Source of the DNA: Ailanthus altissimus | Lineage: Eukaryota; Streptophyta; Magnoliopsida; Sapindales; Simaroubaceae | DNA: 64,000 nt | NCBI GenBank assembly: GCA_946807835.1 | Contig: OX327705.1 | Location: forward strand, 14,352,501 to 14,416,500 | Direction of reading: 5' to 3' | Shown here: piece after piece, positions 3,321 through 55,366 of the stretch | Position numbering within the stretch: the stretch's first letter is position 1 | Layout of the letters: every line of letters begins with the position of its first letter | Notes under the pieces: model-generated | What the model was told of the DNA's origin: nothing | The model's database searches: none | The model's input: only the letters and a program-made list of their open reading frames with translations | Position numbers and translations under genes: made by a program

Positions 3321-3329
3321 TTAGGACAG

Positions 3330-4440: not shown

Positions 4441-4449
4441 AGACTAACT

Positions 4450-14767: not shown

Positions 14768-15374
14768 GGGAAATTTCCCGCTTTGACCACTATTTAAGGG
14801 GATTAATGTTTTTTGACCTAACTCAAAATATTTAATTTTTGTTAACCAAATATAATATATACTGACCATTTTACCCTTATTTGTAATTTTATCATTTTTA
14901 TTTAATTATTTTTTTTCTTTTTTTTAAATGTTTTTCTTTTTATTTCCGTGTTCTCAACTCTCAACACCCCTCACAACTCTCTCTCCACTAATACAATTTT
15001 TTTTTCAAAATTCTCTTATAGATCAGTTACTTTCTTTATCAAAATTCTCTTATAGATCAATTACTTTCCAAAATTCTTACGTTACGAAGCGGAGGAAGCA
15101 AAGGAACTAAAAACAGACAAAAATTAGTAGGTTTTTATGTAAATTCAGTAGTGATATGTGTTTTTGTGTGTTTTGTATGTAATTATTAGAAATGTATAAT
15201 TGTAGTGTTAATGTATAAAATAGGTTAAAAATGAGTGAGTGATAAAAAAAATGACCAAAAATGGTCGAAACGGTAAAATTTGACATTTTTTGACCCGTAC
15301 TTCGTTGCACGCGCCACTTTGTTGCAACACGCGCAGCTTGTTCGACTTATTGCACAACAAGTTGCTAGACTTGT

Positions 15375-16937
15375 TGTTTACGCTCAAAATATAATGTGAC
15401 TATCGCAGTATAGATTGAGGTGTCGATCCCACAAAGAAGCTTTTGGTCAAATAGGTTGGTGAAGTAAAATATTAAAGCAGTAGCAAATAAGAATTAATTA
15501 ATTGATTTAAGTGGATGAGATAGAATTGTCTTTGAATTGGGAAAAATGTCTTATGATGATTTAAGCAAGGCTTCGAGAATCACAATTATGCTTTATAAAT
15601 CTATTCTACACTTTGATTCAATATTTATAACTCAATTGAAAGTTGCACATCCCAAACAATCAATCGGAAGATGTGTAAAATATAGCACATTTGATAACAT
15701 ATGCATTTGATATGACTAAACTCTTTGAAAACATTAACACGAATCACGTTCATTTATACAAATTATTTAAGATAAAAAATATATCATTTTGACAATATTG
15801 CAGTAAAAGATTAACTTAAATATCAAATTATTATTATCTTTATATTTTATCCAAGATCGACAATATATCGATTGACAATATTGCAGTAAAAAATTAACGT
15901 GTAAAACAATGTAACCAATAACAATTATAATTCAATAAGAATCACATAAAGAAAGTATGACTGAAAATATATGAAACATGAGAATTATAACCTCTAGATT
16001 ATAGAAAAATACTAGATAAGAGTTTAGACATAAACAAACTTACAAACATTTGTAGCTTTTGACAAAGAATCAAAGTATAGAAGTAGATTTATTACACATA
16101 AAAGTTCATCTCTTAACCTTGCCAAGACCTTTAGCTTAGATTACAATGCATGTCAATAAGAGAAAAATAAGAGAGAATTATCTAGTGTTGAAAACGTCCT
16201 AAGAGTGTCCTTATATAGGCAATGAATGAAAATATGTTAAGTGTGACTTCAATCTTTAATAATTTAGGCCAACAACTCGTTTACCCACTTGCAGAACCTT
16301 TTTGATAATACAAATGACTAATATAGCATTTTTACCCAACATAAAAGCTGTATAATGTTTTCTCTTCTTTCCATAGGCACCAAGTTCATCCAAATTGGAT
16401 GAGTATCAAATGCGATATGGGAAAAATACTAAAGATATGTCAGATTTTGACCAACAACACTTTTATCCACTTGCAATACAATTTTGTCCATAATAACGGT
16501 TGATTTATACTTTACCATCAACATAAGAGTTGTTGATAATTAAGTCAATATTTTATATCTTTAATAATTATACCAATTGGGTGTGTATTTTATGATATAC
16601 ATTCCAAATACATGAGTTGGGTCAAGCGAAGCAAAAGTTGTAACCCAATTCTATTATATCTCAATATTTGGCCCATAACATGTTAGATTTGGCTTTTCAA
16701 TTGTTCTTGAAGTTTGTGTAAGATTGAGTCATGTTACTCTAGATTCATGAATTTCTTCATTTTGATTTCTACATTGAGAGTTACGTCCATTTTACCTAAA
16801 CTTGTGCAAATAACATTCATTAATTACAATTTAAGGAGAACACTTTATGTCAAGCTAAAAATAAAAAAATGCTAAAATTAGTAATATTAAATGGTGACTA
16901 AATCTCTTAATAGATATGTATTTTCATGTGTTCATCA
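15375..16937 (-). repeat. 3' LTR of the Athila-like element
   Basis: On the minus strand it begins TGATGAACACATG at 16,937 and ends at 15,375. It has two similar internal blocks ('gacaatattgcagtaaaa' around 15,790 and 15,875). The polypurine tract expected just inside it is poorly preserved ('ggttggagactg'). Confidence 0.9.
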
Positions 16938-17129
16938 CAGTCTCCAACCAACTTATTGCTAGTCTCTAGCAATTTAAGCGTAAATAGAATATGCAAAACT
17001 ACTTAAGCATTTCAAATAAAAAGTCAATTCAAGACCACTATTGTTATTCTGGGTTTTTCACTTATAACTTCCAAAAATTGTGTGTGTTCATCAGGGAAAT
17101 CATCTTGAATTGGTGGCAAATTAGTAGAG

Positions 17130-18660
17130 TCAGTGAACTCAAGATAGGATAAATGATCAGCAACAACATTTTCAACGCTCTTCTTGTTTTTAATGGCTAA
17201 ATCAAATTCCTACAAAAGAATAATCCACTAAATTAAACGGGTTTTAGCATTCTTTTTAGAAAAAAGGTACTTAAGGGCCGCGTGGTCAGTAAAAATAATG
17301 ATAGGTGAACCAATCAAATAAGAACATAATTTGTATAAGGCAAAAACAACAGCTAGTAGTTCTTTTTCAGCAGTAGTGTAATTCATCTGAGCATCATTCA
17401 AAGTCCTACTATCATAATAAACAACAATAGGTTTCCCTCCTTTTGTTGCCCAAGAACTGCTCCTACAGCATAATTACTTGCATCACACATAATTTCAAAT
17501 TGGAGGTTCCAATCCGGTAATTGCATGATAGGAGCAGTGGTGAATTTGGCAATGAGTGTTTGGAATGCCTTCTCACACTCTCGTGTCTATGTAAATTCTG
17601 CATCTTTTAGTAAAATGTTACACAATGTTCTAGATATGGCAGAAAAATTTCATATAAACCTCTTGTAAAAGCTAGTATGTCCAAGAAAAGATCAGACATC
17701 TTTTACCATTTTGAGTATAAGTAATTTAGAGATTAATTCAATTTTGGCCTTATCAACCTCTATCCCTCTTTCAGATACAATGTGTCCCAAAACGATTCCT
17801 GAAGATACCATGAAATGACATTTCTCCCACTTTAGGACAAGTCATTTTTATTTATACCTACTCAAAATAACTTTCAAGTTAAGTAGACATAAATTAAAAG
17901 AATTACCAAAAACAGTCAAATCATCCATAAAAGTTTCCATGCATTTTTCAACCATATTAGAGAAAATACTTAGCATACAACGTTGAAAAGTAGCTGGTGC
18001 ATTACATAATCTAAATGGCATCCTATGAAAAGCATAAGTACCAAAAGAGCATGTAAAAGTCATTTTTTCGTGATCTTCTATAACTATTTAAATCTGGTAA
18101 TATCCTGAATATCCATCAAGAAAGCAATAAAGAGGATGTTTAGCTACACGTTCTAAAATTTGGTCGATAAAAGGCAATAAAAAATAGTCTTTCCTAGTGG
18201 CTGTGTTTAATTTTCTATAATCAATACACATTCGCCAACCACTTACTATCTTAGTTGGTACAAGTACTCCATTCTCATTTTCTACAATAGTAACCTCGGA
18301 TTTCTTAGGCACTACATAAGTTAGATTTACCTATTGACTATAAGAAATTTAGTAGATTATACCCGCATCTAATAGTTTCAAGACCTCTTTCTTCACTACT
18401 TCTTTTATTGTTGGGTTAAGTCTTCTTTGTGGGTCCCTATAGGATTGGGTACCTTCCTCTAAATGAATTCTATAGGAGCATATCAATGGAGAAATACCTT
18501 TAATATCAGCTATGGTCCAACCTAGTGCAGACTTATGTTCCTTTAATAATTTTATCAATTTTTTCTCTTGTTTAGCACTAAGTTCAGAAGAAATAATGAT
18601 AGGAAAGGTATCACCTAGTCCCAAGAATACGTGTTTCAAACCTTTGGGCAGTGGAAAAAG
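17130..18660 (-). pseudogene. Athila-like reverse transcriptase and RNase H, broken
   Basis: RT blocks run in order: 'SALGWTIADIKGIS' (about 18,540), 'GWRMCIDYRKLNTATRKD' (about 18,235), 'FLDGYSGYYQI' (about 18,120) and 'RRMPF-like/LCNAPATFQRC' (about 18,005). The catalytic motif reads FMDD at 17,931-17,920. RNase H follows ('CDASNYAVGAVLGQ' near 17,490; 'TDHAALKYLF'-like near 17,290; 'SVENVVADHLS' near 17,170). At least three frame breaks are present. Soon after RNase H the sequence runs directly into the LTR, so the integrase domain is deleted. Confidence 0.88.
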
Positions 18661-18929
18661 TTTAACTTTTGGTGTCTCGAGGTTTGATGGTTTCAGTCTC
18701 TCCCCCTCTCGTGGTAACTCTTCAAAGCATCGCTGCCAAAATCGAGTCCCTTTATTCTATGAGTAAAAAATAATAAACACATTAGTTGTTTCATCAGGAT
18801 AATACAATTCTTCAAAATCAAAATTGAGAAGGTTTTCCAAAGAATCAGAGTCATGATTTTTATAAGCTTCCTCCTCTACAAGTGTATCTATTATATATGA
18901 ATGATAGTATTCGTCTTCATCTCGTGGTT

Positions 18930-19700
18930 ACTTGCTAATATGGAAAATGTTCACCTCAAGAGTCATATTCCCAAAAGATAATTTTATTAGACCATTTCTG
19001 CAATTAATAAGAGCATTAGCAGTGGCAAAAAAATGTCTCCTTAAAATAAGAGAAATTTTAGACTCCATGTTAACCATAAAATGAGTATCTAAAACAAGAA
19101 AATCAACATGGTAGTAAAATTTATCAATTTGCAACAAAACATCTTTTACTATTTTTCATGGTTTCTTGATTAATCGGTCAGCTAATTGTAGGATTATAGA
19201 TGTAGGTTTAATCTCACCAAGTTTCAATTATAAGTAAATAGAATAAGGCATTAAATTTACACTTGCTCCTAAGTCCAACAACGTTTAACCAAACTCATGT
19301 GTCCCAATTTGACAGGAGATTGTGGGATATCATGGGTCTTTATATTTGGGTTGTGTCTTTTATGCAATCACTACACTTATCTGTTCTGTCAAAAATGCAT
19401 TTTTTTTTTACATAGTATTGTCTTTTGATAGTACATACATCCTTAATGACTTTGGCATAAGTTGAATTTCGAAGTTTTTTCCAACAGGTCGAAGAGCTTG
19501 AGGAAAAGGCACTGAGATTGAAAACTTATTTTCTAGCTCTTTTTCCACTGTGGCCTCTTTTTCAAGAGGGCCATCTTTACTACTCGTAGATGTGTTAGTT
19601 GAAAAAGTAGGCTCACTCACAATCTTACTACTTCGAGTAGTAATGGCATTGACTTCTTTGAGATTTTGTGCATCAGAAGTAAAAACTTGTGCCATAAATT
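18930..19700 (-). pseudogene. Athila-like aspartic protease region, broken
   Basis: The linker frame at 19,695-19,408 is followed by the protease core with LLDLGASVNLMP (active-site D-L-G-A-S) near 19,280. Its C-terminal part ('VLLQIDKFYYHVDFLVLDT') is at 19,145-18,930. Interrupted by stops. Confidence 0.75.
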
Positions 19701-19986
19701 GTCTTTTTAGATTAGATTGGGGTTAAGATGGGAACTTACCTCGCTCTTGTACAGTTAAGGCACTGGTCAACTTTACGATTTAACTCTTGATTTCTTTATT
19801 TTCATCTATCACCTGTGCAAGAACTATTTCAAATTTTTTATTAGTCTTACTTTGTGCCTTTATAAATGTTTGTAATGTATCCTCTAAAAGACTTCTAGTT
19901 GGTCGTGCATTATATTGAGGTGCAACATAAGACTTGGGTACTTAGTGTTCTTGTTTCCAATGGCTGTTGGCTTGTTGGTTAGATTT

Positions 19987-20950
19987 TTAACTAAAGTTTG
20001 GGTGGTTTCTCCAACTAGAATTATAAGTTTCAGGGTGGGGTGAATAAGACTTCTTGTACATTCTTAGGGCATTACATTGTTTCTCATATATCCCTCTTAT
20101 TTTACTATAAGTGGGACAATTTTGAGCTAAGTGTTTTACTCTTCCACAGACAAAACAGATATCGTGTGACTCAACCTTGGCAACCGCGTGGGTGACCCTT
20201 CTATCTTTGGTTTTTAAGGCCTTTAACTCCCTAATTAAGACCTCTAATTGGGCTTTGAGGTTATCCTCTTCCCTAAGATGGAAAACTTCACTGGGTCGTG
20301 ACCTATTTGTGTTTTCAATAATGCTATGTCTAGTCCATGTATAGGCTTTTTCGGCTAAGTCATTAAGGAATTCTATAGCTTCCTCGGGATCTTTGCGAAG
20401 GAACTCCCTATTACACATCATCTCAACAAATTAACACTCTCTAATTGTAAGTCTCTCATAAAAATAGCTAACCAAGTGCCAATTTTCGTACCTATGGTGA
20501 GGGCATAAATTTAGCAACTCTAAACTTTTTCCATGCTTGATATAAGGTTTCACTATTTTTTTGAGAAAATGAAGAAATTTTTCTTTTCAGGCCATTAGTT
20601 TTATGTTGTGAAAAGTATTTATTGAAAAATTCTCGAGTCATTTTTGCCTAAGTTCCTATAAACCTCGACCTCAAAGAGTATAGCCAACTCTTTACTTTAT
20701 CTTTCAATGAAAAAGGAAAAAATTTAAGCCTAACAGTACCTATAGCTTCAGGTTGGCTATGGAATGTGGTAATTACCTCTTCAAATTCCCTAACATGTAC
20801 ATAAGGATTTTTACTATCTAAACTAAGAAAAATGGGCAGAAGTTGTATCATTCCAAGTTTAAAATCAGAATGTGGTGTGTTAGGTGGAAATATAATGCAT
20901 GATGGTGTGGTTATGCGAGTAGGATGCAAGTAATCTTTTCAAGTCCTAAC
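19987..20950 (-). pseudogene. Athila-like gag, broken
   Basis: The minus frame at 20,929-20,648 carries the gag capsid segment ('TPSCIIFPPNTPHSDFKLG', then 'LKFFPFSLKDKVKSWLYSL'). After frame breaks it continues at 20,421-19,987 ('MMCNREFLRKDPEEAIEFL') to a zinc knuckle, CFVCGRVKHLAQNC (canonical CX2CX4HX4C). This would package retrotransposon RNA. Stops between the two halves mean no full gag can be made. The next 300 bp is the gag-protease linker. Confidence 0.85.
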
Positions 20951-21079
20951 AGAGTTTTCCTCGTGTTGGTTCATTATGTTAGAATTACAAGATGAACTAG
21001 ATGGTGAATTCTCTTTCCTTACAAATTGTGGTGGTGGTTCTAATTCCACTTCTCTCACAAATCTTCCTCGTTTGTCTTT

Positions 21080-21840
21080 AAGTCGATGTATACATCCTAA
21101 CAATTTTATTTTTAAAGAAAATTCTCAAGAAAAAATTAAGAAGTGAAATAAAACACAATAAGAAATAGAAATGAGTTAAGTGGTAAGACCAACCATGAAA
21201 TATAACTATAGAATACAATAAATAAACAAAAGATAATAAATTGTAAAGTACAATAAATAATAAATAAAAAGTATAATAAATAAATAAAAAGTACAATAAA
21301 TAAATAAGAGAAAAAAGTGCAATAAATAAATTAAATTAAATGCAAGGTACAATAAATAAAGAAAATACAAAAAATATAATAAATAAATAAATAAAAGTGC
21401 AATAAATAAATAAAATAAAATAAAATGTAAAGTAAAATAAAAGAAAATAAAGTGTAGTAACTAAATAAAAGGAAATAAAGTGCAAAGTGCAATAAATAAA
21501 TAAGAAAAAAATGAAGTACAATAATAAATAAAAGAAAATAAATTTTAAAGTACAATAAATAAATAAATAAAATAAAATAAATTACGCTGCAGAACCAGCC
21601 ATTAAAATAAAATAAAATACGAGAAATTAAATAAAGAAAATAAAGTGCAATAATAAATAAAAGAAAATAAACTAAGTTAGGCAGTAGAACCAGCCATTAG
21701 AATAAAATAAAATACAACAAAATAACTAAAAAAATAAACTGAGTTAGGTGGTAGAACCAACCTTGAACAATAAAATAAATTACAACAAGAAAAATAAATT
21801 TAAAAACTAAAATTTTACAACAAAAAAATATACAAAGTTA
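21080..21840. repeat. AATAAA-rich low-complexity leader with tandem units
   Basis: Between the primer-binding site and gag lies about 750 bp made almost only of 'aataaata/aaaataaa' runs. It is punctuated by 'gaaccagccattaaaataaa'-like units near 21,592, 21,689 and 21,752. Minus-strand open frames here encode only Phe/Tyr/Leu/Ile-rich text and are not genes. Confidence 0.85.
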
Positions 21841-21886
21841 CCGCTTTAGTATTGATAAACGCAACCGACTTCCGCTTAATGTGCCT

Positions 21887-21903
21887 CCTTAGCAATGGCG
21901 CCA
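21887..21903 (-). promoter_or_regulatory. Primer-binding site of the Athila-like element
   Basis: On the minus strand it reads TGGCGCCATTGCTAAGG. This starts like the TGGCGCCGTTGCC-type site usual for Athila-class elements and then diverges. Confidence 0.7.
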
Positions 21904-21908
21904 AATTT

Positions 21909-23471
21909 TGTTTACACTCAAAATATAATGCGGCTATCGTAGTATAGATTAAGGTGTCGATCACATAAGGAAGCTTTTGGCAAAATAAATTGGTGAAGCA
22001 AAATATTAAAGCAGTAGTAAATGAGAAAATTACTTAATTGGTTTAAGTGGATGAAATAAAATTGTCTATGAATTGAGAAAAACATCTTATGATGATTTAA
22101 GCAAGGTTTCGAGAACCACAATTATGCTTTATAAATCTACTTTACACTTTGATTCAATGTTAATAACTCAATTGAAAGTTGCACATCTCAAATAATCAAT
22201 CGAAAGATATGTAAAATATAGCACATTTGATAACACATGTATTTAATATGACTAAACTGTTTGCAAACATTAATATAAATCATGTTCATTTATACAAATT
22301 ATCTAAGATCGACAATATACTTTTTTGATAATATTGTAGTAAAAGATTCAACTTGAGTGTCAAATGAGTATTGTCTTTACACGTTATCTAAGATCGACAA
22401 TATATCGATTGACAATATTGCAATAAAAGATTAATATGTAAAATAATGTAACTAGTAACAATTATAATTCAATAAGAATCACATAAAAAAATTTTGACTG
22501 AACATATATAAAACATGAGAATTATAACCTCTAGATTATAGAAAAAATACTAGATAAGAGTTTAGGCATAAACAAACTTACAAACATTTGTAGCTCTTGA
22601 CAAATAATCAAAGTATAGAAATAGATTTATTACATATAAAAGTTCATCTCTTAGCCTTGTCAAGAACTCTAGCCTAGATTACAATGCATGTCAATAAGAG
22701 AAAAATAAGAGAGAATTATCTAGTATTGAAAATGTCTTAAGAGTGTCCTTATATAGGCAATGAATGGAAATATGTTAAGTGTGACTTCAATCTTCAATAA
22801 TTTAGGCCAACAACTTGTTCACCCATTTGCAGCACTTTTTTTATTATGAAAATAACCGATGTAGCCTTTTGGCCGACATAAAAGTTGTAGCATTTTGTCT
22901 CTTCTTTTTATAGGCAGGTTTATACAAATTGGATGAGTATCAAATGCGATATGGGCAAAATACTAAAAATATGTCAGATTTAGACCAACAACCTTTTTAC
23001 CCACTTATAATACAATTTGGTCTATGCTAACGGCTGATTTAAACTTTATCATCAACATAAGAGTTATTGATAATTAAGTCAATGTTTTATAGCTTCATGA
23101 ATTATACCAATTAGGTACTTCTTTTGTGAGATACAGTCCAAATACTTGAGTTGGGGCAGGTTAAGCAGAAGTTTTAACCCAATTCTATTGTATCTCAATT
23201 TTTGGCTCATAACATGGTGAATTTAACTTTTCAACTGTTCTTCAAGCTTGTGTAAGATTGAGTCATGTTACTCCAGGTTCAAAAATTTCTTCATTTTAAT
23301 TTTTACATTGAGAGTTACGTTCATTTTACCTAAACTTGTGCAAATAACATTCATTAATCACAATTTAAGAAGAACATTTTATTTCAAACTAAAAATACAA
23401 AAATGGTAAAATTAGTGACATTAAATGGTGACTGAATCTCTTAATAGATATGTATTTTTATGTGTTCATCA
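21909..23471 (-). repeat. 5' LTR of the Athila-like element
   Basis: Direct repeat of 15,375-16,937 with many substitutions and balanced indels. It is followed on the minus strand, five bases further in, by the primer-binding site. Confidence 0.9.
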
Positions 23472-23709
23472 CTTGTTGCACAACAAGTTGTGTTGCACAA
23501 CTTGTTGCACACCCAAGAGTATGCGGTGCCTTGCCTAGGAGCATACGGCGTGCGCAACAAGCCACATGGCATTCTAAATATATTTTATTTTATTTTATTT
23601 ATTTAAGTAAATTTTATATATTCAATATTTTCGATTATTTTAAATTTAATTATAGATATAATTATACTCAAATAGTGTTAGTTATTTTTAAGTGCTGCTG
23701 ATATCATCA

Positions 23710-28770: not shown

Positions 28771-28779
28771 TATTTATAT
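28771..28779. repeat. Right 9-bp target duplication of the MULE
   Basis: TATTTATAT, identical to 14,759-14,767. Confidence 0.9.
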
Positions 28780-29862
28780 TATAAATAACAATGAACAATA
28801 ATATATTATTATCAATGACGGTTGAAACCGTCGCCTTATAGCCTCTAGTGTTTAGTGATAGTTTTTCTTTATCAAGAAGTTACCGTTATTTATTTCTGTA
28901 GCAATGAAAATAACAGCAGGAAATGAGAACTACATTAACTTTATTTTATTTTTTTTATAAGTACATTTATCCCATTATATTTTCAAAACATTACTAATTA
29001 TTTTCCTCAAATTTCAGTAAGACTAACATTTTTTTACAAAATGAAAATCCTAAACTAAGAAAATAAATGCAAAATTGTAATGCCAAAATAATTTTGATGT
29101 GCACAAAACATAATAATTCTAATATAATTATCACATTAGGTTGAAAATTATTAAATTACTAAATAAATACAAAGTGTTCATAATTAATTGTTATTATATA
29201 ACTACCTTAATAATAAGTAAAAAATTAGTAACAATTTATAAGTAATAGCCAACACATCAAGATATAAAAAATTTTGAATAAAAAATATTTTGTTCTACAA
29301 ATTTGATTTAATTCTCAATTTTATTTTACGAGTTTCCAAAAACTCAATAAATATTTTTATTTTTGCCCTTACAAGATTTAAAATTTTACACTTTGATTTA
29401 TTTGTAATATAAATTTTGCTCTAAAATTTTGAACTTTGATCATTTGCCTTAAAATTTGGCTTCGCTCCTAGAACCCGACCACAGACCACAGATAATTTTT
29501 TCTTCTCGAAACTATTTGCACGGTATACCAAAACATGATAACAAGACACCGAAATGCATTTAATATGAATCTATAGAATAGATTTTCTTTAAGTATAGAT
29601 ATTTTGTGATTTTATTTGTGTATTTGGGGACATGATAAATTTAGAAAATTTTGACATTTTTGAGATTTTTCCACATCTCAATATAATTCTTAGATACAAA
29701 ATCCAATTTACTGGATTTCATATTACATTTTTTAAATTATTTTTACAATTTCGTAAAAATTATGAGTTTCCAACCACATCAAAAGTATAATATCTAGCTA
29801 CAAAACCTAAACTGTTCATGCATCCTGCTTTCTTAAATGCAAAGTTATCACTTTGTCTTCTT
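28780..29862. other. Intergenic DNA, possible CACTA-type relic
   Basis: Near 28,817-28,835 the text 'gacggttgaaaccgtcgc' is a palindromic subterminal-type motif. Near 28,897 'tttctgtagcaatg' resembles a worn 'tttcttgtagtg' CACTA end. The left partner was not found. The rest shows no features. Confidence 0.35.
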
Positions 29863-29870
29863 TATATAAA
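29863..29870 (+). promoter_or_regulatory. TATA box candidate for the response regulator gene
   Basis: TATATAAA about 450 bp upstream of the start codon. That spacing requires an intron in the 5' UTR. A good acceptor (pyrimidine-rich, then TTTTTACAG at 30,288-30,296) precedes the ATG exon. Confidence 0.5.
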
Positions 29871-30314
29871 CTCTCAAGAACTAGTTTGCATAAGCATAGT
29901 TAAATAGTGTTAGTTCTAAGTAAGCAACAAGGTACTTCAAACTAGGTTATATTTAGTTATGAGTTCTTGGTCTTTCTTGTTTATTTTATCGGTGTTTTGA
30001 TTCTCTATACAGGCATTTCATCAATTTTAGCATCAATATAGAGTAGCTTTTCTTGCTACTTATCCTTGTCTGTTAATATATATTCTATATAAGATAGGAT
30101 CCCTTTCCTTTTTTATTTTCATTACCGATCACAGGCTCATTGCTTTGGCTGTAGAAATATTAATCAGCAAGCATATGACTAGCTGAAGAAATATGCATCC
30201 ATAAATAAGCTCGCTTATACATAAATGAAGCTAATATTAAAAAACTATGACAAAAAAAAATAGCTACAACTTTTACTGAATAATTCATTTTTACAGGAAA
30301 TTCAAGTGCAAAAT

Positions 30315-30581
30315 ATGGTGCTTGAAGAAGGAACGTCTAACTCGAAGAAAATGAAGATTGCTGAAGAGAAAAGTACTGTGCCGAGAAACTTGTTTTTTTC
30401 GGCCCTTGTGGTTGATGATGATCCTATCATCCGAAAGATCCACTCAATGATGTTGAAGTCTCTTGGCTTCAAAATTGAAGTAGCTGAAAATGGAAAAAAA
30501 GCCGTTGATCTCTTCCGTGCTGGGGCTAACTTCCATATCGTTTTTATTGACATGGAAATGCCAATCATGAATGGAATTGAG
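30315..30581 (+). CDS. Response regulator exon 1
   Basis: 89 codons from ATG 30,315 to the GT donor at 30,582. The N-terminal 25 residues are variable and Lys/Glu-rich. The receiver domain starts at about residue 28 ('FSALVVDDDPIIRKIHSMML'). The ATG was chosen over an in-frame GTG three codons upstream. If unspliced, the frame stops within the intron at about 30,602. Confidence 0.85.
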
Positions 30582-30782
30582 GTAGATTCTATGTTTTCCT
30601 GATATGAAATTTTATAAATTATTATTGTCGTATCTGCTGTAAAACAAATGTAAATGAAACATAGCAAGCATTTATAATACATTTTCCCTTTTAATTTTAA
30701 AACTAAGAGAGGAAGCAAGTGTTTTACTAAAAGGTAAAGAAAAAACTAATTGTCTTTTGAGTACGTGCACAAGACAACCAAG

Positions 30783-31314
30783 TGTCACGCCCCAAATATT
30801 TTCAAGCAATTACTCGAGTATTTGGCGCGCGACAAGGCCACCAAGAGGGTTTTTGGCCCATGATGTGTTACATGGGTTGAAGATTCTAGAAGGCCCAATA
30901 GATTTGGGTTAATGCCACATGTGTGTGGTAGGTGGGGGAGTTTTCTAGAAAAGGCATATTCCTTTGGATATACTTTTGGTAGTTGGCATCTTTTGGAATA
31001 TTCCTTAGCATATTCTCCTCTTTAGATTTGGACCCTTGGATTAGAGTTAATCCTAGCCGTCCATTGTATATAGCTTTAGCTATAAATAGGTGGAGTTCTC
31101 ATTTGAGAATTCATCCTTCAAATTGTAGAAATACTCTTAGCTTGTAAGTATATAGCTTTGTAATCTCTCTTTAGTAATAAAATACGAGAGCATTCTCTCA
31201 AACACTTGGTGTGCTTCTTCTTCATCTCTTTCTTTGGTTAATTGGGGTCTTGTAGGCTGCTTAGCACTAGCAAGTGTCTAAGGCCGCACGGTTTCGAGAA
31301 ATCGGGTCGTGACA
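30783..31314 (+). repeat. 5' LTR of the gag-only element
   Basis: 532 bp, TG...CA, with 7-bp inverted ends. It contains a TATA box (TATAAATA, 31,081-31,088) and a poly(A) signal (AATAAA, 31,176-31,181). Confidence 0.95.
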
Positions 31315-31316
31315 AG

Positions 31317-31328
31317 TGGTATCAGAGC
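31317..31328 (+). promoter_or_regulatory. Primer-binding site
   Basis: TGGTATCAGAGC, two bases after the 5' LTR, complementary to the 3' end of initiator tRNA-Met. Confidence 0.93.
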
Positions 31329-31341
31329 GGGTTCAAAGAAG

Positions 31342-33972
31342 ATGGTGAAAGAAGTTGCTGGAACATCGGGGATTACTCAAGGGAGGGGTAGAGACCCCAA
31401 AGCTAGGAGACATGGGAGTATTTCGCCAGAAAAGTTCGTTGATCCGAACCATGATCTAGGGGACATGGTTATGAGGCTCGGTGGTGCTGTGAGCAAGGCA
31501 ACAGATCGCCTTGGGGAGTTGGAGGAGCAAGTCCAGAATGTCGAGGTGGGCCTCGATACTCAAGGTGATGAGCTGCGCTCCCTAATCGAAAGCTCCATTG
31601 ACGAGCATGCTGTCAAGCAACGGGACTGGATCAAGGCTTTTCAGGAGAAGGTCTACAACACCATGGACAAAGTTCAAGCCCAAGTAGAAGAGCTACGAAA
31701 GGGGTTTGAAGGTGTCAAGGAGGATGTGGTGTTGTGCAAGCGAGCGGTCGCTAATGGCGTAGCTACTCAAACCGCAGTGGCTGCACCAAGGGTCGAGGCC
31801 CCTAAACCGAAGGAGTTTAGCGGCAGACGGGATGCCAAGGAGCTTGACAACTTCTTTTGGCAAATGGAGAGGTATTTCGGCGCTATGGGCGTGCGGGACG
31901 AACACAAGGTAAGTACCGCAACTTTATACCTTTCCGATCATGCAATTCTGTGGTGGCGTAGGAAAAGCGAGGAGATTCGCAAGGGTACCTGCACCATAGA
32001 CACATGGGAAGAATTGCAACGGGAGCTAAAACGCCAATTCTATCCGGAGAATGTGGCGCACGACGCTCGCAAGCGGTTGAAGGAGTTGAAACAAACGAAG
32101 TCCATTGGGGAGTACGTAGAGGAGTACTCTTTGTTGATGCTGCAAATCCGCAACATGACCGAGGAGGACTTGTTGTTCAATTTCCTGGATGGGTTACAAT
32201 CCTGGGCAGCCAATGAGTTGAAGCGGCGTGGAGTGCAGAATATATCCGACGCCCTTACAATGGCGGAGACGCTCATGGATTACCGCAAGGGGGATTCGGG
32301 AAAGTCCAGAAATTCTAAACCCAATCACAGCAAGGGTGGGGAAGCCAAGGAGTTTCAGCCTCCGGAGAGCAAGGAGGAGAAAGGCAAACCGCCCAAGTGG
32401 AAAGAACAGAAACGCAACGGCCATAGAGGTAATGGTCCGAAGTCTAACTGTTTTCTCTGCGATGGGGATCATTGGGTGAAGGACTGTCCGAAGAAGAAGG
32501 CTTTCAATGCAATGTACGAGGCAAAATACGAGGGCGAGCAGAGCCGTATGGGTTGCATGCAGCTGTTCAATTCCCTCAAAGCCAAGCGGCGTGCAGACGC
32601 GCCAACGGGGACGGCGCTCATGTACATTGAAGCCAATGTCAATTGCATCAAGACTCAAGTGTTGGTTGATACGGGGGCTACGCACAACTTCATTAGGCGT
32701 GCGGAAGCGGAACGCTTGGGTCTTCATGTGGAGAAAGGAGAGGGATACCTCAAGTCCGTGAATGCAAGAGCCAAGCCGCTAGATGGGGTGGTTCGTGGAG
32801 CTGAAATCCACCTTGGCAAATGGCACGGTGAGGTAAATTTCTCGGTAGCACCTCTCGATGATTTTGATGTGGTGCTAGGTATGGAGTTCTTACGGCAGTA
32901 CAATGTGGTGTTACTTCCTCAACACAACTATATGTGTATTTTGGAAGGAGGGCCTCGAATGATACCAACGGTAGACATGCCCAAGGGTGGGCGATCCAAG
33001 CCAAACGCCAAGGTCCTTTCCGCAATGCAGCTAAGGGTAGATGCTGGGCGCAAAGGAGGGTCACATTCAGCCTCAACAACGGGGGTGGATGATGCGGCAA
33101 ATGGGGGCGAGGATGAAATACCGAAGGTTGTTGCAGAAGTGCTCGGGGAGCACAATGGGGTCAAGCCTACTGCCATACCGGAAGAACCGCCTTCAAGAGA
33201 TGTAATTGAGGGCAAGTTGGAGCTTGAGATTACGCTTCCAACTATGGGGTCGATGCCTCCATCGGAGATGGGAGAGTTGCAGGGGCAGCTCGAGGAGTTG
33301 TTGGATGCGGGTGTCATCCAAAAGTCCAAGGTGTCACATGATGTGCAGTTTCAGCACAAGGAGTGGGGCGAAGACAAGCAGCGGCGTGTCAAGCACAGTG
33401 CGGGGGACTTGGTGATGGAGACGATACTTCCACCACAACGCAAGTCAGCACGCCCACTTCATAAGGGCCTTGATCGTGGGGACGAGGGGCCAAGGTTGAT
33501 TGCCAAGAGAGTTGGCTACGTCTCGCATAAGGTGGAGTTACCTTCGAGACAGAGACAGTGGCAACATCAGGTGCATTCCGCAAGCTGTTGGAAGCAGTAC
33601 CGTGGAGGTACGGGAGATGCAGAATTTGAGCCACACAACCGGGAACCTTTGGGGATTTCCACACGCCATGACAAAGGGGAGCAACTCAGGGCGAGCCTTG
33701 AGTACTTTGTTGAGTGGAAAGGGTTTCCGGATGGGAGAGCTCGCTTGGGACACGAGAGCGCACAGCAAGAGTTTGCAGAACGGGGCGCGCAAGTTCCAGC
33801 GAAGACGCGACGAGGGCGTCGCGTGAATTTGGTGGGGGAGAATGTCACGCCCCAAATATTCTCAAGCAATTACTCGAGTATTTGGCGCGCGACAAGGCCA
33901 CCAAGAGGGGTTTTGGCCCATGATGTGTTACATGGGTTGAAGATTCTAGAAGGCCCAATAGATTTGGGTTAA
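31342..33972 (+). CDS. Gag-protease polyprotein fused to integrase C-terminus/chromodomain remnants
   Basis: Start is ATG 31,342. An in-frame GTG at 31,309 lies in the LTR and is not used here. The frame is open for 876 codons, to a TAA inside the 3' LTR. Residues ~20-120 are coiled-coil-like. Residues ~160-310 are a retrotransposon gag domain ('FFWQMERYF', 'ILWWRRKSEEI', 'LKRQFYPENVAHDARKRL', 'NFLDGLQSWAANEL'). The zinc knuckle is at 370-382, CFLCDGDHWVKDC, spaced CX2CX3HX4C, one residue shorter than canonical. The aspartic protease active site is DTGATHNF at D443. Residues ~627-665 match only the start of RT ('LQGQLEELLDAGVIQKSKV'). The frame then jumps to integrase C-terminal text ('SAGDLVMETILPPQRKS', 'KRVGYVSHKVELP') and a chromodomain scrap ('YFVEWKGFPDG', ~788). 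Keeping a frame this long despite the pol deletion suggests selection or youth. Confidence 0.9.
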   Translation: MVKEVAGTSGITQGRGRDPKARRHGSISPEKFVDPNHDLGDMVMRLGGAVSKATDRLGELEEQVQNVEVGLDTQGDELRSLIESSIDEHAVKQRDWIKAFQEKVYNTMDKVQAQVEELRKGFEGVKEDVVLCKRAVANGVATQTAVAAPRVEAPKPKEFSGRRDAKELDNFFWQMERYFGAMGVRDEHKVSTATLYLSDHAILWWRRKSEEIRKGTCTIDTWEELQRELKRQFYPENVAHDARKRLKELKQTKSIGEYVEEYSLLMLQIRNMTEEDLLFNFLDGLQSWAANELKRRGVQNISDALTMAETLMDYRKGDSGKSRNSKPNHSKGGEAKEFQPPESKEEKGKPPKWKEQKRNGHRGNGPKSNCFLCDGDHWVKDCPKKKAFNAMYEAKYEGEQSRMGCMQLFNSLKAKRRADAPTGTALMYIEANVNCIKTQVLVDTGATHNFIRRAEAERLGLHVEKGEGYLKSVNARAKPLDGVVRGAEIHLGKWHGEVNFSVAPLDDFDVVLGMEFLRQYNVVLLPQHNYMCILEGGPRMIPTVDMPKGGRSKPNAKVLSAMQLRVDAGRKGGSHSASTTGVDDAANGGEDEIPKVVAEVLGEHNGVKPTAIPEEPPSRDVIEGKLELEITLPTMGSMPPSEMGELQGQLEELLDAGVIQKSKVSHDVQFQHKEWGEDKQRRVKHSAGDLVMETILPPQRKSARPLHKGLDRGDEGPRLIAKRVGYVSHKVELPSRQRQWQHQVHSASCWKQYRGGTGDAEFEPHNREPLGISTRHDKGEQLRASLEYFVEWKGFPDGRARLGHESAQQEFAERGAQVPAKTRRGRRVNLVGENVTPQIFSSNYSSIWRATRPPRGVLAHDVLHGLKILEGPIDLG
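33834..33842 (+). promoter_or_regulatory. Polypurine tract
   Basis: GGGGGAGAA directly abuts the 3' LTR. Confidence 0.85.
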
Positions 33973-34374
33973 TGCCACATGTGTGTGGTAGGTGGGGGAG
34001 TTTTCTAGAAAAGGCATATTCCTTTGGATATACTTTTGGTAGTTGGCATCTTTTGGAATATTCCTTAGCATATTCTCCTCTTTAGATTTGGACCCTTGGA
34101 TTAGAGTTAATCCTAGCCGTCCATTGTATATAGCTTTAGCTATAAATAGGTGGAGTTCTCATTTGAGAATTCATCCTTCAAATTGTAGAAATACTCTTAG
34201 CTTGTAAGTATATAGCTTTGTAATCTCTCTTTAGTAATAAAATACGAGAGCATTCTCTCAAACACTTGGTGTGCTTCTTCTTCATCTCTTTCTTTGGTTA
34301 ATTGGGGTCTTGTAGGCTGCTTAGCACTAGCAAGTGTCTAAGGCCGCACGGTTTCGAGAAATCGGGTCGTGACA
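33843..34374 (+). repeat. 3' LTR of the gag-only element
   Basis: 532 bp, 2 differences from the 5' LTR. TATAAATA is at 34,141-34,148 and AATAAA at 34,236-34,241. The outward-facing promoter could in principle drive the exon-2 remnant just downstream. Confidence 0.95.
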
Positions 34375-34378
34375 CAAG

Positions 34379-34543
34379 GAACTGCGGGGCATGGGGGTGG
34401 AAAGTAAGATTGTGGGCGTGACTTCCCGCGATTTAGAGATTGAGAAGCAAATTTTCATGCAAGCCGGTCTTGATATATGTTACACAAAACCACTGAATGT
34501 GGCCAAGATCTTCCCTCTGCTGGAGGAACTAAAGAAGAACTGA
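34379..34543 (+). CDS. Response regulator exon 2, distal part
   Basis: It encodes the last 54 residues, with 'SKIVGVTS', 'FMQAGLDICYTKPL' and 'AKIFPLLEELKKN', and is free of stops. The nine bases of exon 2 upstream of the insertion are at 30,774-30,782. The absence of decay agrees with a recent insertion. Confidence 0.88.
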   Translation, partial: ELRGMGVESKIVGVTSRDLEIEKQIFMQAGLDICYTKPLNVAKIFPLLEELKKN

Positions 34544-37500
34544 ACTGTCATCAAACTCATCAAAGAAATTAACTGCATCCTCGTTATATGTTCTCAGCTT
34601 TGATCAATGAAACTTCACATCTTCATGATTTTCTTGATCATCTAGAGTACATAGATTGGTGTTGTTAATTTCATTGATAATTATCTAGGGTAAGAGTTAA
34701 AACTAGCCAGCTGAAGTTGATTTATTCAGCTTTGGCAATGAATAAAGTGTTTGTTTGCTGGGTCTTTTTGTTTTTATGTTTTCAAGTGTCAAAGTTTGTT
34801 TTTTGTCAGAGTTGTTTTAAGTTGTGTCTTTTTGAGAGTCAATGTAAACTTGCCTTCTTAATATGAAGTTCTAAGGAATAAAGCCTTTTTTTTGGCTATT
34901 TAAAATTTGTGGATGGATGTTTTAATATTCATATATTTTTACATTGATTGATATACCACAACATGTGCTATTTATAGATAACATATTATTAGAAGTTATG
35001 GATATAATTAGAAGTGTTTTTTAAATACTGTTGGAAACCACACTTCATACCGTCTATAGCGTTTGATTGAAATAAATAAAATTGTTTTTAAAGATCGGGC
35101 CTCTTCAGGATTGCTTCTGGAAATTTAAAAAGCAACTTTAGAGTTTATAATAATTTAATTTAAAATATATACAAACATATACAGGTGCTAATTATATTCT
35201 CCAGCGATTTTATCAAAAACTTTTAGAAGCAATTTAGAAAAGGATGAGGATGGTTAGATGGTGTTGGGAGAACAAAGAAAAATGAAGATTATAACCCTAT
35301 TTGGATCAACACCATCTAATCATCATCATCTCTTCTTCTTTATAATCTTCCTTTTTTTTCTGTTTCACCTAAATTTTATTCAAAAGTTAAGAAGTTGAAA
35401 TTGAAATAAAATTCTTATATAAGCCAAAGTTATGACCCATTCTAGCGAGGTTTGGGATTACTGAAAAAACCTCAGAAGAATCATTGTCATATTCTTTGCT
35501 TAATTGCCGTCATTTTGCATAGAGAATGCTTTTAAAGACTGCATAGTAACAGTGTCTCAACTTTCTTTTGAAATAAATTAATTTACTCTTTGGTTACCCA
35601 AATATATATAAAGGAAAAAATGTAATAAATTGCGTAATTTACCACATAAAGAGTTTTTAAATACATATTAAGATTTTATATCATATTATAAATTATGAAT
35701 TAATTAAACAGTATCATATAGTAGTATTGTTCATTATACAGTGAACTACTTAGGTCATTAAATTATTTATATATATATATAAAATATCATTTGATCTTTA
35801 ATTTTATAAATATATACTAATTTCGTTCTCATTTTTTTAATATATATTATATTAATTCTTATAAGAACAAAAATAATAGTTTTTTAAAAATAAAAATGAT
35901 AATAAAAAATTAAAAAGTCCTTATATAAACTAATATGGTATATATTTAAAAACCGAGGACTCAATTGATTTATATCTATAAAATCAAAAATTAAAATAAC
36001 ACTTCCTTTATATATATATATATATATATATATAGCGCAAAATCACATTATATACTATAACCATAAAAAAGATTGCATCATTTGCTTAATTAAGTTGGTA
36101 GAAAACAAATTTTAATTCCTAAAGACCTGACACGACATGAGTTTTTAGTTTGAAAATGATTCTTTAATCCTGAAAATCAATCATAAGAAATTTGAATATT
36201 ATGGTTTTTATATTTTGAGTTGCTTTGTCCACATAAATAATTTTAATTAAGAATATTATGATAATAATAGAATTTTTGAAAAGATAGGTGAAGAGGAAAA
36301 CTACGGGTGCACGGAGCTCCATCCTTTTTTAAGTTATTCATGAAAAATATTTACTGATGCGGAAATTATTATTTCTTTCCCGGTGAAATTTTATAATTAT
36401 CATATATCTCCCTATACTTTACACAATACTTCATTACTCTCCTATTGTTAGAAAAAAAAAAAATTTAACCAACTATTTTTTTAGTTCTTTTGCATTTTGC
36501 CCCTAATATGACATTTCAACAATGCTTGACACTCAGGTAAAAAACAAATGCTTGACACTAAAATAGATATGCTAGGAGTTCAAAACAATATATATTGATG
36601 AAAATTCCTTGATTTATAATTAAGATTAATAATATATTTATTTTTATTTAAAAATTATCAAGTAAAATGAACCAATTTTTTAAAATATAAATATAAATAA
36701 AAAGACATGTGACCTAATTTAGTAGGTTTATTTTTATTTTTACTAATAAAATAAAAAATAGAATGAATACAATATAAAAATTGGAAAGTTAAAAAGAAGT
36801 GAGGGGGGACGGCCTTTCCCTAATCTAATCGGTTTATTTTTAAGTAAAAAAATATAAACAAACTAAATAAAAAAAAACATCACCAGAAACACTACCTTCA
36901 AACTCTAAATTTTAGACCATGGATCGACAATTCTAAAAGAGGTCATGGCACACTGCAACACACTGTCTTGTAATAATATTATTACAATGACTGTAACTTT
37001 GCTCACCACATTTAGCTTTGTGCTAATGCTTTGTTAATAAAAATAAGCCGACAATGAGTATATGCCACTATAACATCTCAATCCTTCGAGCCCAAGCACA
37101 TTAATATTTATTTTGGCCCATTAGAAGAATTTAGCGCCATTGTGAATTTTAAAAAGTCTTTTCTTTTAGGAAATAAAAAAATTGAATGAAAATGAAAAGA
37201 GAGAGGTGCAGGACATTAGATGGGAAAGATGAAAAGGAAAAAAAAATACATGAGAGGAAATAGAACCAAGTAAATGAGTTAAAGAAAATAGAGGAATTAT
37301 TGATGAAGGATTAACTGTTGAGCTCAAGTTTTAAGCAATGGAGCTTGAGATATAGAAAGAGAGAACTTGAAATTCAAATTTAAAGGCTTAAAGCTTGTAA
37401 AATGTCTTTATTTTTCTTTTTCTCAAGAAATTGATACTTGAGTAAGTTCTCTCTCATTCATAACACTCAAATGTTTGCTTATATTTCTTAAGCACTCATT

Positions 37501-43899: not shown

Positions 43900-45728
43900 A
43901 TGGCCACTTCATCAATGTTCCGTTCTTTGATGATCTGCAGTCTTGTATTTGTTTTGGGAAGTGTTGCTCCCCTAGCTGAGGCTCGAGCTTTCTTCGTGTT
44001 TGGTGATTCACTTGTTGACAGCGGCAACAACAACTACCTTGCGACGACTGCCCGCGCAGACTCGCCGCCATATGGGATAGATTATCCTTCTCGTCGTGCC
44101 ACAGGCCGATTCTCTAATGGCCTTAACATCCCTGACATTATCAGTATGTTTCTAGTATTGTGTCTTATGAATTTCATATTAAACCAACACTCTGTTATCC
44201 AAGTCGTCAAAGTTCAGTGGTCAAATCCTTTACTATCTCAATGTTGTATCGCTCATTTCTGTAACTGAGTTTACGCACATATACATATATTAGGTTACTT
44301 AATCTAGCCATGTAATATTTCCAGGTCAGAAAATTGGCCAATCACAGCCCCCGTTGCCATACTTGAGTCCAGATCTCACGGGACAAAGGCTTCTTGTTGG
44401 TGCCAACTTTGCTTCAGCGGGAATAGGAATTCTCAATGACACTGGAATCCAATTTGTAAGCAAATCTTCACCTTGACTTCTCAATCTGCATCTCAAAAAT
44501 TAATTAATACAAATAAAACTAAGAAATTCTCTTGTTCTCTAACCTGAATCATGCTACATTGCAGCTAAACGTAATTAGAATGTTTAGACAACTGGATTAC
44601 TTCGAGCAATATCAACGTCGAGTAAGTGCTCTCATTGGAGCTCAGCAAACTCGCCGGCTTGTAAACCAAGCGCTTGTGCTCATGACTGTAGGCGGCAATG
44701 ATTTTGTGAATAATTACTATTTGGTGCCTAACTCTGCAAGATCTCGTCAATTTTCTCTGCCTGATTATGTTAAGTACCTCATCTCCGAGTACAGAAACTT
44801 ACTAATGGTAATTCGCTACCACTTTGCTAGCTACACTTTTTGCTATGCATGACATGTCACAGGAGCAATACCAAAAAATATGTATCACGAGTTTATTGAG
44901 GGCGTAGTTAATGTGCTTCCACAAGAGGAATGCTTGGCAACAGCATGCAGTTTTTGTGAATTGTATTTGACAAAATTAATGTAACTCAATCATAATTGTT
45001 GTTGGCTTTAAGTCGATTAATAAAATATTGTCGATTGACAATCAGTTTTTAAATTATATATGTAATTTAATGCTTTTAAGAACATTGTTGCTGTGAACAT
45101 ATGCATGCAGAGGCTATACAAACTGGGAGCACGTAGGGTTCTTGTAACGGGGACCGGGCCGATGGGTTGCGTGCCGGCAGAGCTTGCCATGCGGAGTACA
45201 AACGGTGGATGCTCAGCGGAACTGCAAAGAGCAGCCGCCTTGTACAACCCACAACTCGTTCAAATGCTGCAAGGACTGAACAGGAAAATCGGTAAAACCG
45301 TCTTTGTAGGCGCAAATACTCAACAAATGCACATGGATTTCATCAGTAACCCTCAAGCATATGGTATGCCTTCAGCTTTTCCATGCCTACCGGTTTATAA
45401 TAAGCAAAACATTTTAATGAAAATGAAACTGGGATTGCTTTGCTGAGATACATATTAACCAAAATAATTAACATTCATGCTGTGTTTGGCAGGATTTACA
45501 ACGTCAAGGATAGCATGTTGTGGGCAAGGACCAAACAATGGGCTAGGTCTATGCACAGTGTTATCAAATTTGTGCCCAAACCGTGACGTCTATGCATTCT
45601 GGGATCCATTCCATCCATCGGAAAAGGCAAACAGAATAATTGCTCAACAGATAATGAGCGGCTCCACCAAGTACATGACCCCGATGAATCTCAGCACTGC
45701 CATGGCTTTGGACTCAATCACCAATTGA
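43900..45728 (+). CDS. GDSL esterase/lipase, five exons, 368 residues
   Basis: Exons: 43,900-44,143; 44,325-44,455; 44,565-44,807; 45,111-45,363; 45,493-45,728. All introns are GT-AG and phases join without stops. Residues 1-28 form a signal peptide ending in an Ala-rich site, so the enzyme is probably secreted to the wall or cuticle. Block I is [17 protein letters not shown] with nucleophile Ser37. The block III-type motif GGND has Asn170. Block V DPFHP gives Asp328 and His331. Together these make a complete SGNH-hydrolase active site. Length and the five-exon layout are typical of plant GDSL lipases. The family hydrolyses acyl esters, including cuticular lipids, but the substrate cannot be told from sequence. 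It looks intact. A Tat LTR ends 360 bp upstream. Confidence 0.95.
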
Positions 45729-53068: not shown

Positions 53069-55366
53069 TGTTAGAGTTGGAACCTACGTTCCATCCTAAT
53101 TTTGTATGAATATTAATTATTTAATAGTTATATATATTTTGTATAAAATCGTTAATATTTTCATATAATATCAAGTTTGTTATTTTTCAAATATCGTAGA
53201 TATAAAAAATTTAGATCTGATCTAAAGGAGTTTATGTCAGCGCTAAAAGTTAGCATTCTAAGGATTAAAACCTTATTTAAAATAAGGATAAAGACCTGAG
53301 AATATACTAGTAATGATATAGTTGTAAGGAATTACAAATGATGGTAAGAAATATCATTATATAGTTTATTCTCGAAAATATCGTTTCTGGTCTATGGTTA
53401 CCGACACAGATAGATTGGTATTTCTCCTGGATTAGTGTGTTTCTTTATCTGGATTATCCATATAGTTAATCTTAGCATATCATAGGCTTAACGGAAGCTC
53501 ATATAAACATACATGTATTCAATAAGGACTGAATACTGAACAGGCTCACAAGAACCTCCAATAAACATCACATAGAACCGTCAATGGAGGTTCTTTTTTA
53601 GTCGAGTAGTATACGTAGTGCTTTGACCTAAGACCCACGGTGGACTTGTGAGTGATCCATCATGCTTTGATTTCATGCATGTCAGAGACCTTTCATGATC
53701 TGATCTCTAGGTGTCGTTGGATATGGTCCGATGCATATAGAGTTTGGTGTGCATAAATATGGAATCTGTTAACTCATATAGGTGAGTTGTATATCTTAAT
53801 GCTCTAAGATTAAATTTCAGGAAGTCTTGTGGCTATAAGCATTAGACACCAAAAAATAGTATTTTATAAAATTAAACAATATCGTAAAAGAGTTTGTAGA
53901 TATTATTTACGAAAATACAAATCTGAAGATAAGTTCATGGTTAAACATATAGAGATTTGACTATAATGATCTATATCTCTACTCTTCTAGAATATAAATG
54001 ACTGAATGATTATATGGATATGATTGACCTTAACTTGTATGGTTCAACATGTCATTCTATAAAATATGTAACGTGCATGTGGGGCATCATTCACAAACTT
54101 GTGAAAGAGTTCTATAAGATAAATAGATGCAAACTTAGGAAGACTCATAATATGAAGTGTATTTTTTTAGGTACTAGGTAGCGGACCGAATTAAACAGTT
54201 CAATCTAAAAGAAACAATTATTGTTAAGTTAATTAATTAATGAAAAGTGACATTTGCATGGCTTAGAATATTTAACACTTGGCATTATGCATGAAAAAGT
54301 AAGTGTGGGCCATCATTCACAAACTTGTGAAAGAGTTCTATAAGATAAATAAATGCAAACCTAGAAAGACTCATAATATGAAATGTATTTTTTTAAGTAC
54401 TAGGTAGCGGACCGAATTGAACAGTTCAATCTAAAAGAAACAACTATTGTTAAGTTAATTAATTAATGAAAAGTGACATTTGCATGGCTTAGAATATTTA
54501 ACACTTGGCATTATGCATGAAAAAGTAAGTGGATAATTAAATTTATGCATGAAAAAGTTAGTAAACACTTATGCATAAAAAAGTAAATGGACAAGTGTAT
54601 TATAATTAAACTAATTAATTAATAAGTGTTGTTAATTTTTATATTTGATAGACACTTGGCTTTATATAAAACACATATTCTTTAAAAAAAAATTTAAAAA
54701 ACACATTCAAATGAGATTTGCATAGTTTTCACTTAGTAGAAATTCATTTGGCCATAGGGTTCTTCATGAGATTAGAAAAATGAATTTGGTTTTTTTATTT
54801 TTCTCTCAATCAAAAAAGTGTGGAAAATTTTTCTTCATCAATAGCTAGACTTCATTCGGCAAGGTAAAAAGAGTTTATGAGATGAACAAAAGTCAAAATA
54901 ACATGTAAAGGTTTGCATGTTTTAGTCTTAAAATATTTGGCCAAGTGAGAAGTAAAATGAAGAAGAGTTTTTCATCTCTGTGTCATAGTCAACCATTAGA
55001 GAAAAAAATAGGCAAAAGTTGTTATTTTGTTCTTTCAAGAATTTGACCACATTTAGGGAGAAAGCAAGAGTTGCTTAAAGTAAATTTTGCATAAATTTAA
55101 GGCTTCTATTCTAGCGCCTTAAGCCCACATTATTAAGGATTAGAATTATTCATAAAGATGCTTCAAGGTGAATCTAAAAAAATTGAAACTACACCGATGA
55201 TCTTTAAAGGTATATTTCTATTAATGAAATAGACTTATATTCAGTGTGTGGTTGTTGAAATAAGAAATAGAATTTCATTCCCGCTATGCTATATATATAT
55301 GATATACATTGTATATTTCAATAACCACACCATTACATACAAGCATAATAAGTGCACTAGTTGCAA
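53069..55366 (+). repeat. 5' LTR of the copia element (about 2.3 kb)
   Basis: Starts TGTTAGAGTTGG and is followed by the primer site. It contains a tandem duplication not found in the 3' LTR. Confidence 0.75.
54079..54530 (+). repeat. 226-bp tandem duplication inside the 5' LTR
   Basis: Copy 1 is 54,079-54,304 and copy 2 is 54,305-54,530, from 'catcattcacaaacttgtga' to 'atgcatgaaaaagtaagt'. About 8 differences were counted. The 3' LTR has a single unit at about 60,050-60,355. Confidence 0.9.

Follow-up and report, generated by a model that had tools for sequence, protein, structure and literature searches.

A young pol-less chromoviral retrotransposon in the second coding exon of the syntenic ARR22-class gene of Ailanthus altissima

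The stretch of DNA analysed here, referred to below as the window, comprises 64,000 nucleotides of the Ailanthus altissima assembly (contig OX327705.1, designated C23; C23:14352501-14416500) and carries a response regulator gene of the ARR22 class whose second coding exon is interrupted, after nine bases, by a 3,592-bp long terminal repeat (LTR) retrotransposon lying in the sense orientation of the gene (Table 1). A search of the window for further copies of the element or the ARR gene, and for tRNAs, gave none; the genome searched comprises 939,062,666 bp in 37 contigs. An earlier note on this DNA had described a gene split nine bases into exon 2, and the TG...CA ends, the CAAG duplicate and the GAACTG continuation on which it relied were all verified; the insertion it placed at 30774..34380 is real, but those limits slightly overrun the element.

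The target duplication is the 4-bp CAAG that ends the first nine bases of the exon and recurs immediately after the element, and past this second copy the reading frame resumes in phase from GAACTG to the TGA at 34541-34543. A 5-bp duplication was ruled out for this copy, since the family duplicates 4 bp. The LTRs, 532 bp each with the termini TGTCACG and CGTGACA, differ by two mismatches and zero gaps. The empty site is seen in a duplicate of the gene on the same contig (C23:16579963-16579397, minus strand), in which CACAAG is followed directly by GCAACCAAGGAGCTG and no element is present, and all 27 aligned homologues (chosen from 120 listed among the 156 found) have Ala-Thr-Lys or Ala-Thr-Arg at the insertion point; the duplicate confirms the empty site. 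At substitution rates of 1.3e-8 and 2.5e-9 per site and year, the two differences in 532 positions correspond to LTR ages of 0.15 million years (0.02-0.52) and 0.75 million years (0.09-2.7), respectively. The element is young, as the earlier note had held, and youth alone is no proof of polymorphism; the variation between cultivars that the note envisaged does not suit the source, which is a wild tree.

Table 1. Features of the interrupted gene, the inserted element and the neighbouring gene, in window positions. RT, reverse transcriptase; UTR, untranslated region.
Feature	Position	Strand	Basis or remark
ARR22-class coding exon 1, 89 codons, phase 0	30315..30581	+	open frame, homology to ARR22 proteins
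End of 5' UTR intron; coding exon 1 is probably the transcript's second exon	~30297		inferred by eye from TTTTTACAG followed by G
Native 192-bp intron (GT..AG) with a branch-point-like CTAAT 28 bases from the end	30582..30773	+	the duplicate's intron, at the matching position, has 123 bp
Coding exon 2 up to the insertion, nine bases, ACAACCAAG (Thr-Thr-Lys), ending in the target copy CAAG	30774..30782	+	
Pol-less chromoviral Ty3/Gypsy LTR retrotransposon, gene-sense orientation	30783..34374	+	
5' LTR, 532 bp; TATAAATA at ~31081 and AATAAA at ~31177	30783..31314	+	both motifs by eye
Spacer AG and presumed primer-binding site TGGTATCAGAGC	31315..31328	+	common to the full-length family
Single frame: gag, aspartic protease, RT stump, decayed integrase-C/SH3 and chromodomain remnant	31342..33972	+	stop inside the 3' LTR
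Deletion junction, ~2.19 kb (RT, RNase H, most of integrase) gone relative to the full-length family	33320..33402	+	alignment gap
Polypurine tract TTTGGTGGGGGAGAA	33828..33842	+	identical or nearly so in the full-length family
3' LTR	33843..34374	+	2 mismatches to the 5' LTR
Second CAAG, whose AG could serve as an in-frame splice acceptor	34375..34378	+	
Remainder of coding exon 2, through TGA	34379..34543	+	
GDSL esterase/lipase gene, ARR22 neighbour also in other rosids	43901..45727	+	exon limits by eye

Spliced across the empty site, the coding parts of the gene give a protein of 146 residues in which Response_reg scores 74.6 bits over residues 31-137, and no second Pfam family exceeds its cut-off, so that the protein consists of a receiver domain only. 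It is closest, among the matches listed, to ARR22 proteins, with 70% identity to those of Citrus and Melia. The alignment of 28 proteins (the 27 homologues and the query) has 11 invariant columns; Asp35 and Lys129 are invariant, and Asp79, present in the query, occurs in at least 90% of the proteins. We take these residues to be part of the acidic pair (Asp35), the phospho-acceptor (Asp79) and the Lys of the receiver. The GDSL esterase gene begins about 9.4 kb beyond ARR22, and because the locus tags of the two genes also adjoin in Theobroma (QUC31_009818/009817), Reevesia, Xanthoceras and Dipteronia, the window locus is taken as the ancestral place. Judged from its sequence, the gene is a type-C response regulator of the ARR22 class, the type proposed earlier, and the syntenic copy. 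Pistacia and Mangifera are among the listed GDSL relatives and not among the 120 listed of the 156 ARR22 relatives; the Anacardiaceae may be without this type-C gene, through absence or loss, or it may be unannotated there.

The statement that the exons carry no other damage is borne out as to stops, frameshifts and splice sites, but not at residue 90, a conserved site at which the broken copy alone has Thr, with Ala in 27/27 homologues and in the duplicate. The adjoining Thr91 is invariant in all 27 homologues, and residue 92 is Lys in 23 of them and Arg in four.

The frame of the element matches gag (63.9 bits) and an aspartic protease (49.5 bits), both above their cut-offs and with the DTG present, and a domain search of this frame gave no match to RT, RNase H or integrase. 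It aligns with residues 18-585 and 1284-1435 of a public polyprotein of 1,450 residues, so that some 700 residues are missing; against the full-length locus L039, the unaligned junction corresponds to positions 2005-2089 of the element's internal part and 3205-5398 of that locus. The end of the frame, still in phase, scores 14.4 bits for SH3_Tf2-1 (cut-off 30) and 12.9 bits for Chromo (cut-off 25.1), compared to 66.8 and 52.6 bits for the same domains in the full-length protein. The LTRs, the primer-binding site, the polypurine tract and the target duplication are all present. By its coding content, the element is a derivative of the chromoviral Ty3/Gypsy lineage and not an autonomous member of it, a state on which the earlier note was silent, as it was on the need for a helper and on the in-frame AG supplied by the duplicated target. 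It possesses intact GAG and protease and no RT or integrase, the composition that defines GAG-Pro semi-autonomous elements, and the presence of the protease sets it outside the TR-GAG definition of a GAG frame only.

The relative P0130 was considered as a sharer of the element's deletion and rejected, its junction lying elsewhere, probably through an independent loss; viral contigs scanned with the gag-protease part returned nothing. Among the 120 listed relatives, 20 (19 from Vitis) carry precomputed gag and chromodomain families but lack protease, RT and integrase. These 20 relatives (P0175, P0176, P0178, P0180-P0183, P0185-P0188, P0193-P0196, P0205-P0207, P0225 and P0233) are possibly a pol-less family in which the other end of the frame was kept.

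When the LTR was used as query, 40 of 2,060 candidates were scored, giving a list of 42 matches, from which 13 loci were fetched, 12 with full LTR pairs and one an LTR-97 bp-LTR piece; drawn from this list, the sample leans toward the window copy. The 12 full pairs measure 3,578-3,594 bp, with an internal part of exactly 2,528 bp in 11, and the frame is fully open in ten, one of these with a 12-bp deletion. Their LTRs show no differences in four pairs, one in two, two in one, three in three, and five and six in one pair each, some with short gaps, and the four pairs free of substitutions indicate very recent movement. The LTR/primer-binding-site junction pattern occurs at 422 sites with at most one mismatch, which may include truncated or full-length elements, and at none in the reversed control. 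The ratio of nonsynonymous to synonymous substitution rates (dN/dS), calculated over 66 pairs from 12 equal-length copies including the window's, with the 2,516-bp copy omitted and stop codons skipped, is 0.139 for gag and protease, 0.468 for the linker and 0.615 for the integrase/chromodomain remnant. The frame thus appears to be kept for gag and protease by purifying selection while it decays at its end. Two loci, L035 (C9:88907-94121) and L026 (C32:10940781-10945373), are tandem pol-less elements whose right flank runs into the primer-binding site, and L036 (C9:397181-399343) is the LTR-97 bp-LTR piece of such a tandem arrangement.

The target-site habit was determined for 23 pol-less copies, namely the window's, the 12 fetched, and the first 10 listed LTR/primer-binding-site places, the latter by short flank reads. 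A 4-bp duplication is present in 20; two copies are tandem and lack a right host flank, and one (L032) has none, so that 20 of the 21 copies flanked on either side by host DNA, the window's included, show the duplication. When these 20 targets are taken with eight from the full-length family, position 1 is C in 19 of the 28 and position 4 is G in 20, while A or T occupies position 2 in 26 and position 3 in 24; CAAG agrees with this CWWG-type target. The duplication ends in AG in 9/20 pol-less and 4/8 full-length cases and, excluding the window copy, in 8/19, to be compared with 5.5% AG dinucleotides in the window (p = 4e-6). A preference of retroviral and LTR-element integration for weak palindromes is already described in the available parts of two papers (PMC4422553, PMC6911290), and the target habit as such is therefore not new.

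With the full-length polyprotein as query, 32 of 28,584 candidates were scored and every one of these matched; ten loci of 5.6-5.8 kb were delivered, five with a frame free of stops. All ten start with TGTCACG, and eight carry the tract tggtgggggagaa, from which L045 and L047 each deviate by one base; L045 also has a one-base variant of the primer-binding site. Duplications of 4 bp are clear in eight, and the LTR differences range from 0 (two loci) to 12, with one further pair showing a long gap. In six of these loci, identity to the element is 67-68% in the LTRs, about 75% in the gag-protease DNA and 68-69% in the 3' part. Shared termini and a shared primer-binding site are, in the accessible text of PMC11302176, published marks of a helper/dependent pair. 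This full-length family, which matches the element in its termini, its tract and its habit of 4-bp duplication, is likely the helper.

The genome search with the ARR22 gene gave 15 matches. A paralogue search in the same assembly, suggested in the earlier note, found the intact duplicate, 2.2 Mb away on C23 (16579963-16579694 and 16579570-16579397), with its empty site reading GCAACCAAG followed by GAGCTG and identities by exon of 89% and 91% to the broken copy. Similarity in pieces across 28771-35563 of the window indicates that flanking DNA was copied along with the gene, and no GDSL match was found within 10 kb either side of the duplicate. The two copies differ by 11 synonymous and 13 replacement codons, the duplicate having one extra codon, with dN and dS of 0.040 and 0.133 (NG86), 0.046 and 0.096 (YN00) and 0.043 and 0.110 (maximum likelihood). 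Six replacement sites appear derived in the broken copy, five in the duplicate and two are unclear, according to a crude majority of homologues that Melia contradicts at residue 24; the broken copy seems to have no clear excess of replacement changes. A GDSL homoeologue lies at C30:11447416-11449544 (86-93% by exon) and, about 70 kb from it, near C30:11.377 Mb (L023 ~4692-5303), an ARR22 homoeologue remnant consists of a damaged exon 2 with in-frame stops; the 10-kb stretch yielded no exon 1, and the coding sequence just upstream is copia-like (by eye). Two more distant type-C-like loci possess both exons, on C2 (50% and 47%) and C1 (46% and 43%), although wider matches there include stops, probably by overrun into introns. 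Both syntenic ARR22 copies therefore appear dead as read from the assembly, and the relocated intact duplicate survives and probably keeps ARR22 function, buffering the loss.

Taking these results together, we consider it highly probable that a gag-protease chromoviral element, moved in trans by the RT and integrase of a full-length relative, recently entered the second coding exon of syntenic ARR22, leaving the gene null. The sequence itself shows that integration took place at a CWWG-type target and duplicated 4 bp, and movement in trans would follow from the missing enzymes together with the young LTRs. As the native acceptor is intact and the nearest, read-through into the LTR is expected: the mRNA would read Thr-Thr-Lys, 26 LTR-coded residues and a stop, or would end in the LTR. 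The predicted product is a truncated receiver of 118 residues without its second half, and the broken allele is very probably null, as had been suggested before.

Several observations weigh against this interpretation. The LTRs of the putative helper are only about 68% identical to those of the element, which leaves room for a different family in the helper's role, and a second full-length group, matching from residue 25 to 1441, exists. Clean duplications are lacking in two of the ten full-length loci (off by one base in L039; none in L040, which has an altered 3' LTR end) and in L032, one of the ten fetched copies with both host flanks. The dN/dS contrast uses related copies picked for LTR similarity to the window and compared pairwise, and its dS values differ between regions (0.091 and 0.053), possibly because of recombination.

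If the element were spliced out with the intron, from the donor at 30582 to the acceptor AG at 34377-34378, a hypomorphic protein of 143 residues without Thr90-Thr91-Lys92 would result. The AG of the duplicated CAAG falls exactly at the in-phase boundary, and with the three residues gone the protein keeps 62.7 bits in the receiver model, down from 74.6 in the empty-site form. However, the native acceptor is intact and far closer to the donor; the new one is preceded by neither CTRAY nor YTNAY within 60 bases and has pyrimidines at 7/20 positions, compared to CTAAT and 11/20 for the native one, and another AG lies 22 bases upstream of it. In addition, this form drops the invariant Thr91, and the LTR, in sense orientation, carries a poly(A)-like signal (by eye), all of which makes such splicing improbable. 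We see slightly less chance in a generalisation of it, in which the integrase of the pair prefers CWWG targets, sense insertions just inside an exon would often bring an AG at their 3' edge and could be removed with the preceding intron, and ARR22 is such a case, with three codons lost and the frame kept; if true, the target preference would soften the damage to genes. It is very unlikely that transcription from a promoter in the 3' LTR yields a short exon-2 protein starting at Met97: TATAAATA in the LTR and the in-frame ATG (by eye) would allow it, but the product would lack the phospho-acceptor Asp79 and most of the receiver core. An assembly artefact or chimaera at the junctions is close to negligible, for although repeats are prone to misassembly, the perfect duplication is in line with the habit of the family, the duplicate gene is empty at the site, and a consensus quality of 61.1 is given in the available portion of the assembly paper (PMC10472066).

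A further explanation, compatible with trans-mobilisation and a null allele except on fixation, is that the gene was already dispensable and the insertion, fixed in the species, is a step of ordinary loss after duplication; we regard the chances of this as even. It is favoured by the intact duplicate at C23:16.58 Mb, by the reduction of the C30 homoeologue to a damaged exon 2 about 70 kb from the GDSL homoeologue, and by Arabidopsis, in which arr22-2 and arr22-3 have no transcript and no aberrant phenotype, as far as the available part of PMC2478664 goes. On the other side, the intact exons of the broken copy and its lack of a clear replacement excess imply that any loss of constraint is recent. 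The same normal nulls, the intact duplicate and the two distant type-C-like loci weaken the earlier suggestion that type-C genes are few per genome and that the loss could alter cytokinin signalling.

Elsewhere in the window, an older Gypsy-like element with ~1.57-kb LTRs at 88% identity occupies 15374-23472 (minus strand) and contains the window's sole Rfam match at gathering threshold, snoR71 (20489-20593, plus strand), which is antisense to gag-like fragments (by eye). Three related repeats (1-924, 53093-54749 and 59082-60580) share ~70-79% identity in pieces, the first being inverted relative to the others, and a 228-bp tandem copy lies at 54078-54531.

The locus presents a clean natural disruption of syntenic ARR22 in a genome where a relocated duplicate is still intact. 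It also suggests that a dicot tree harbours a young helper/dependent pair of retrotransposons. The consequence of the ARR22 loss is probably small and the young pol-less family more telling: with conserved gag-protease and a decaying remnant in one frame, the question of why dependent elements keep gag, through cis preference or shared capsids, becomes directly testable. Among the papers listed for Ailanthus retrotransposons, for chromovirus 4-bp targets, for retrotransposon insertions into type-C regulators and for spliced retrotransposon insertions with target duplications, no account of this case was recognised. Every component has a known counterpart.

On the side of the gene, Arabidopsis ARR22 and ARR24 are likewise receiver-only, and their intron is probably at the same place, to judge from its position. 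In arr22-3, according to the available part of PMC2478664, the T-DNA lies in intron 2, 3 bp short of the 3' splice site. This would place it about 12 bp from the position that corresponds to the Ailanthus site; the Ailanthus insert, in contrast, is natural, exonic and a retrotransposon, in a genome that has duplicates of the gene. On the side of the element, wheat RLG_Sabrina_SA (PMC9744471, as far as its available text describes it) is likewise multi-copy, with GAG and protease intact and no RT or integrase, but measures 8.1-8.3 kb, whereas the Ailanthus element, in another host, has 3.6 kb and keeps a recognisable, decaying integrase-C/chromodomain remnant. TR-GAG elements, in the accessible part of PMC8704663, are also pol-less, retain gag and are transposition-competent, as shown in ddm1 Arabidopsis; they hold GAG only, and the ddm1 example is Copia, whereas the Ailanthus element also keeps its protease and is Gypsy. 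A close system, from what the available text of PMC11302176 reports, is the RLG_Quinta/RLG_Cereba pair of einkorn, in which GAG is kept as well.

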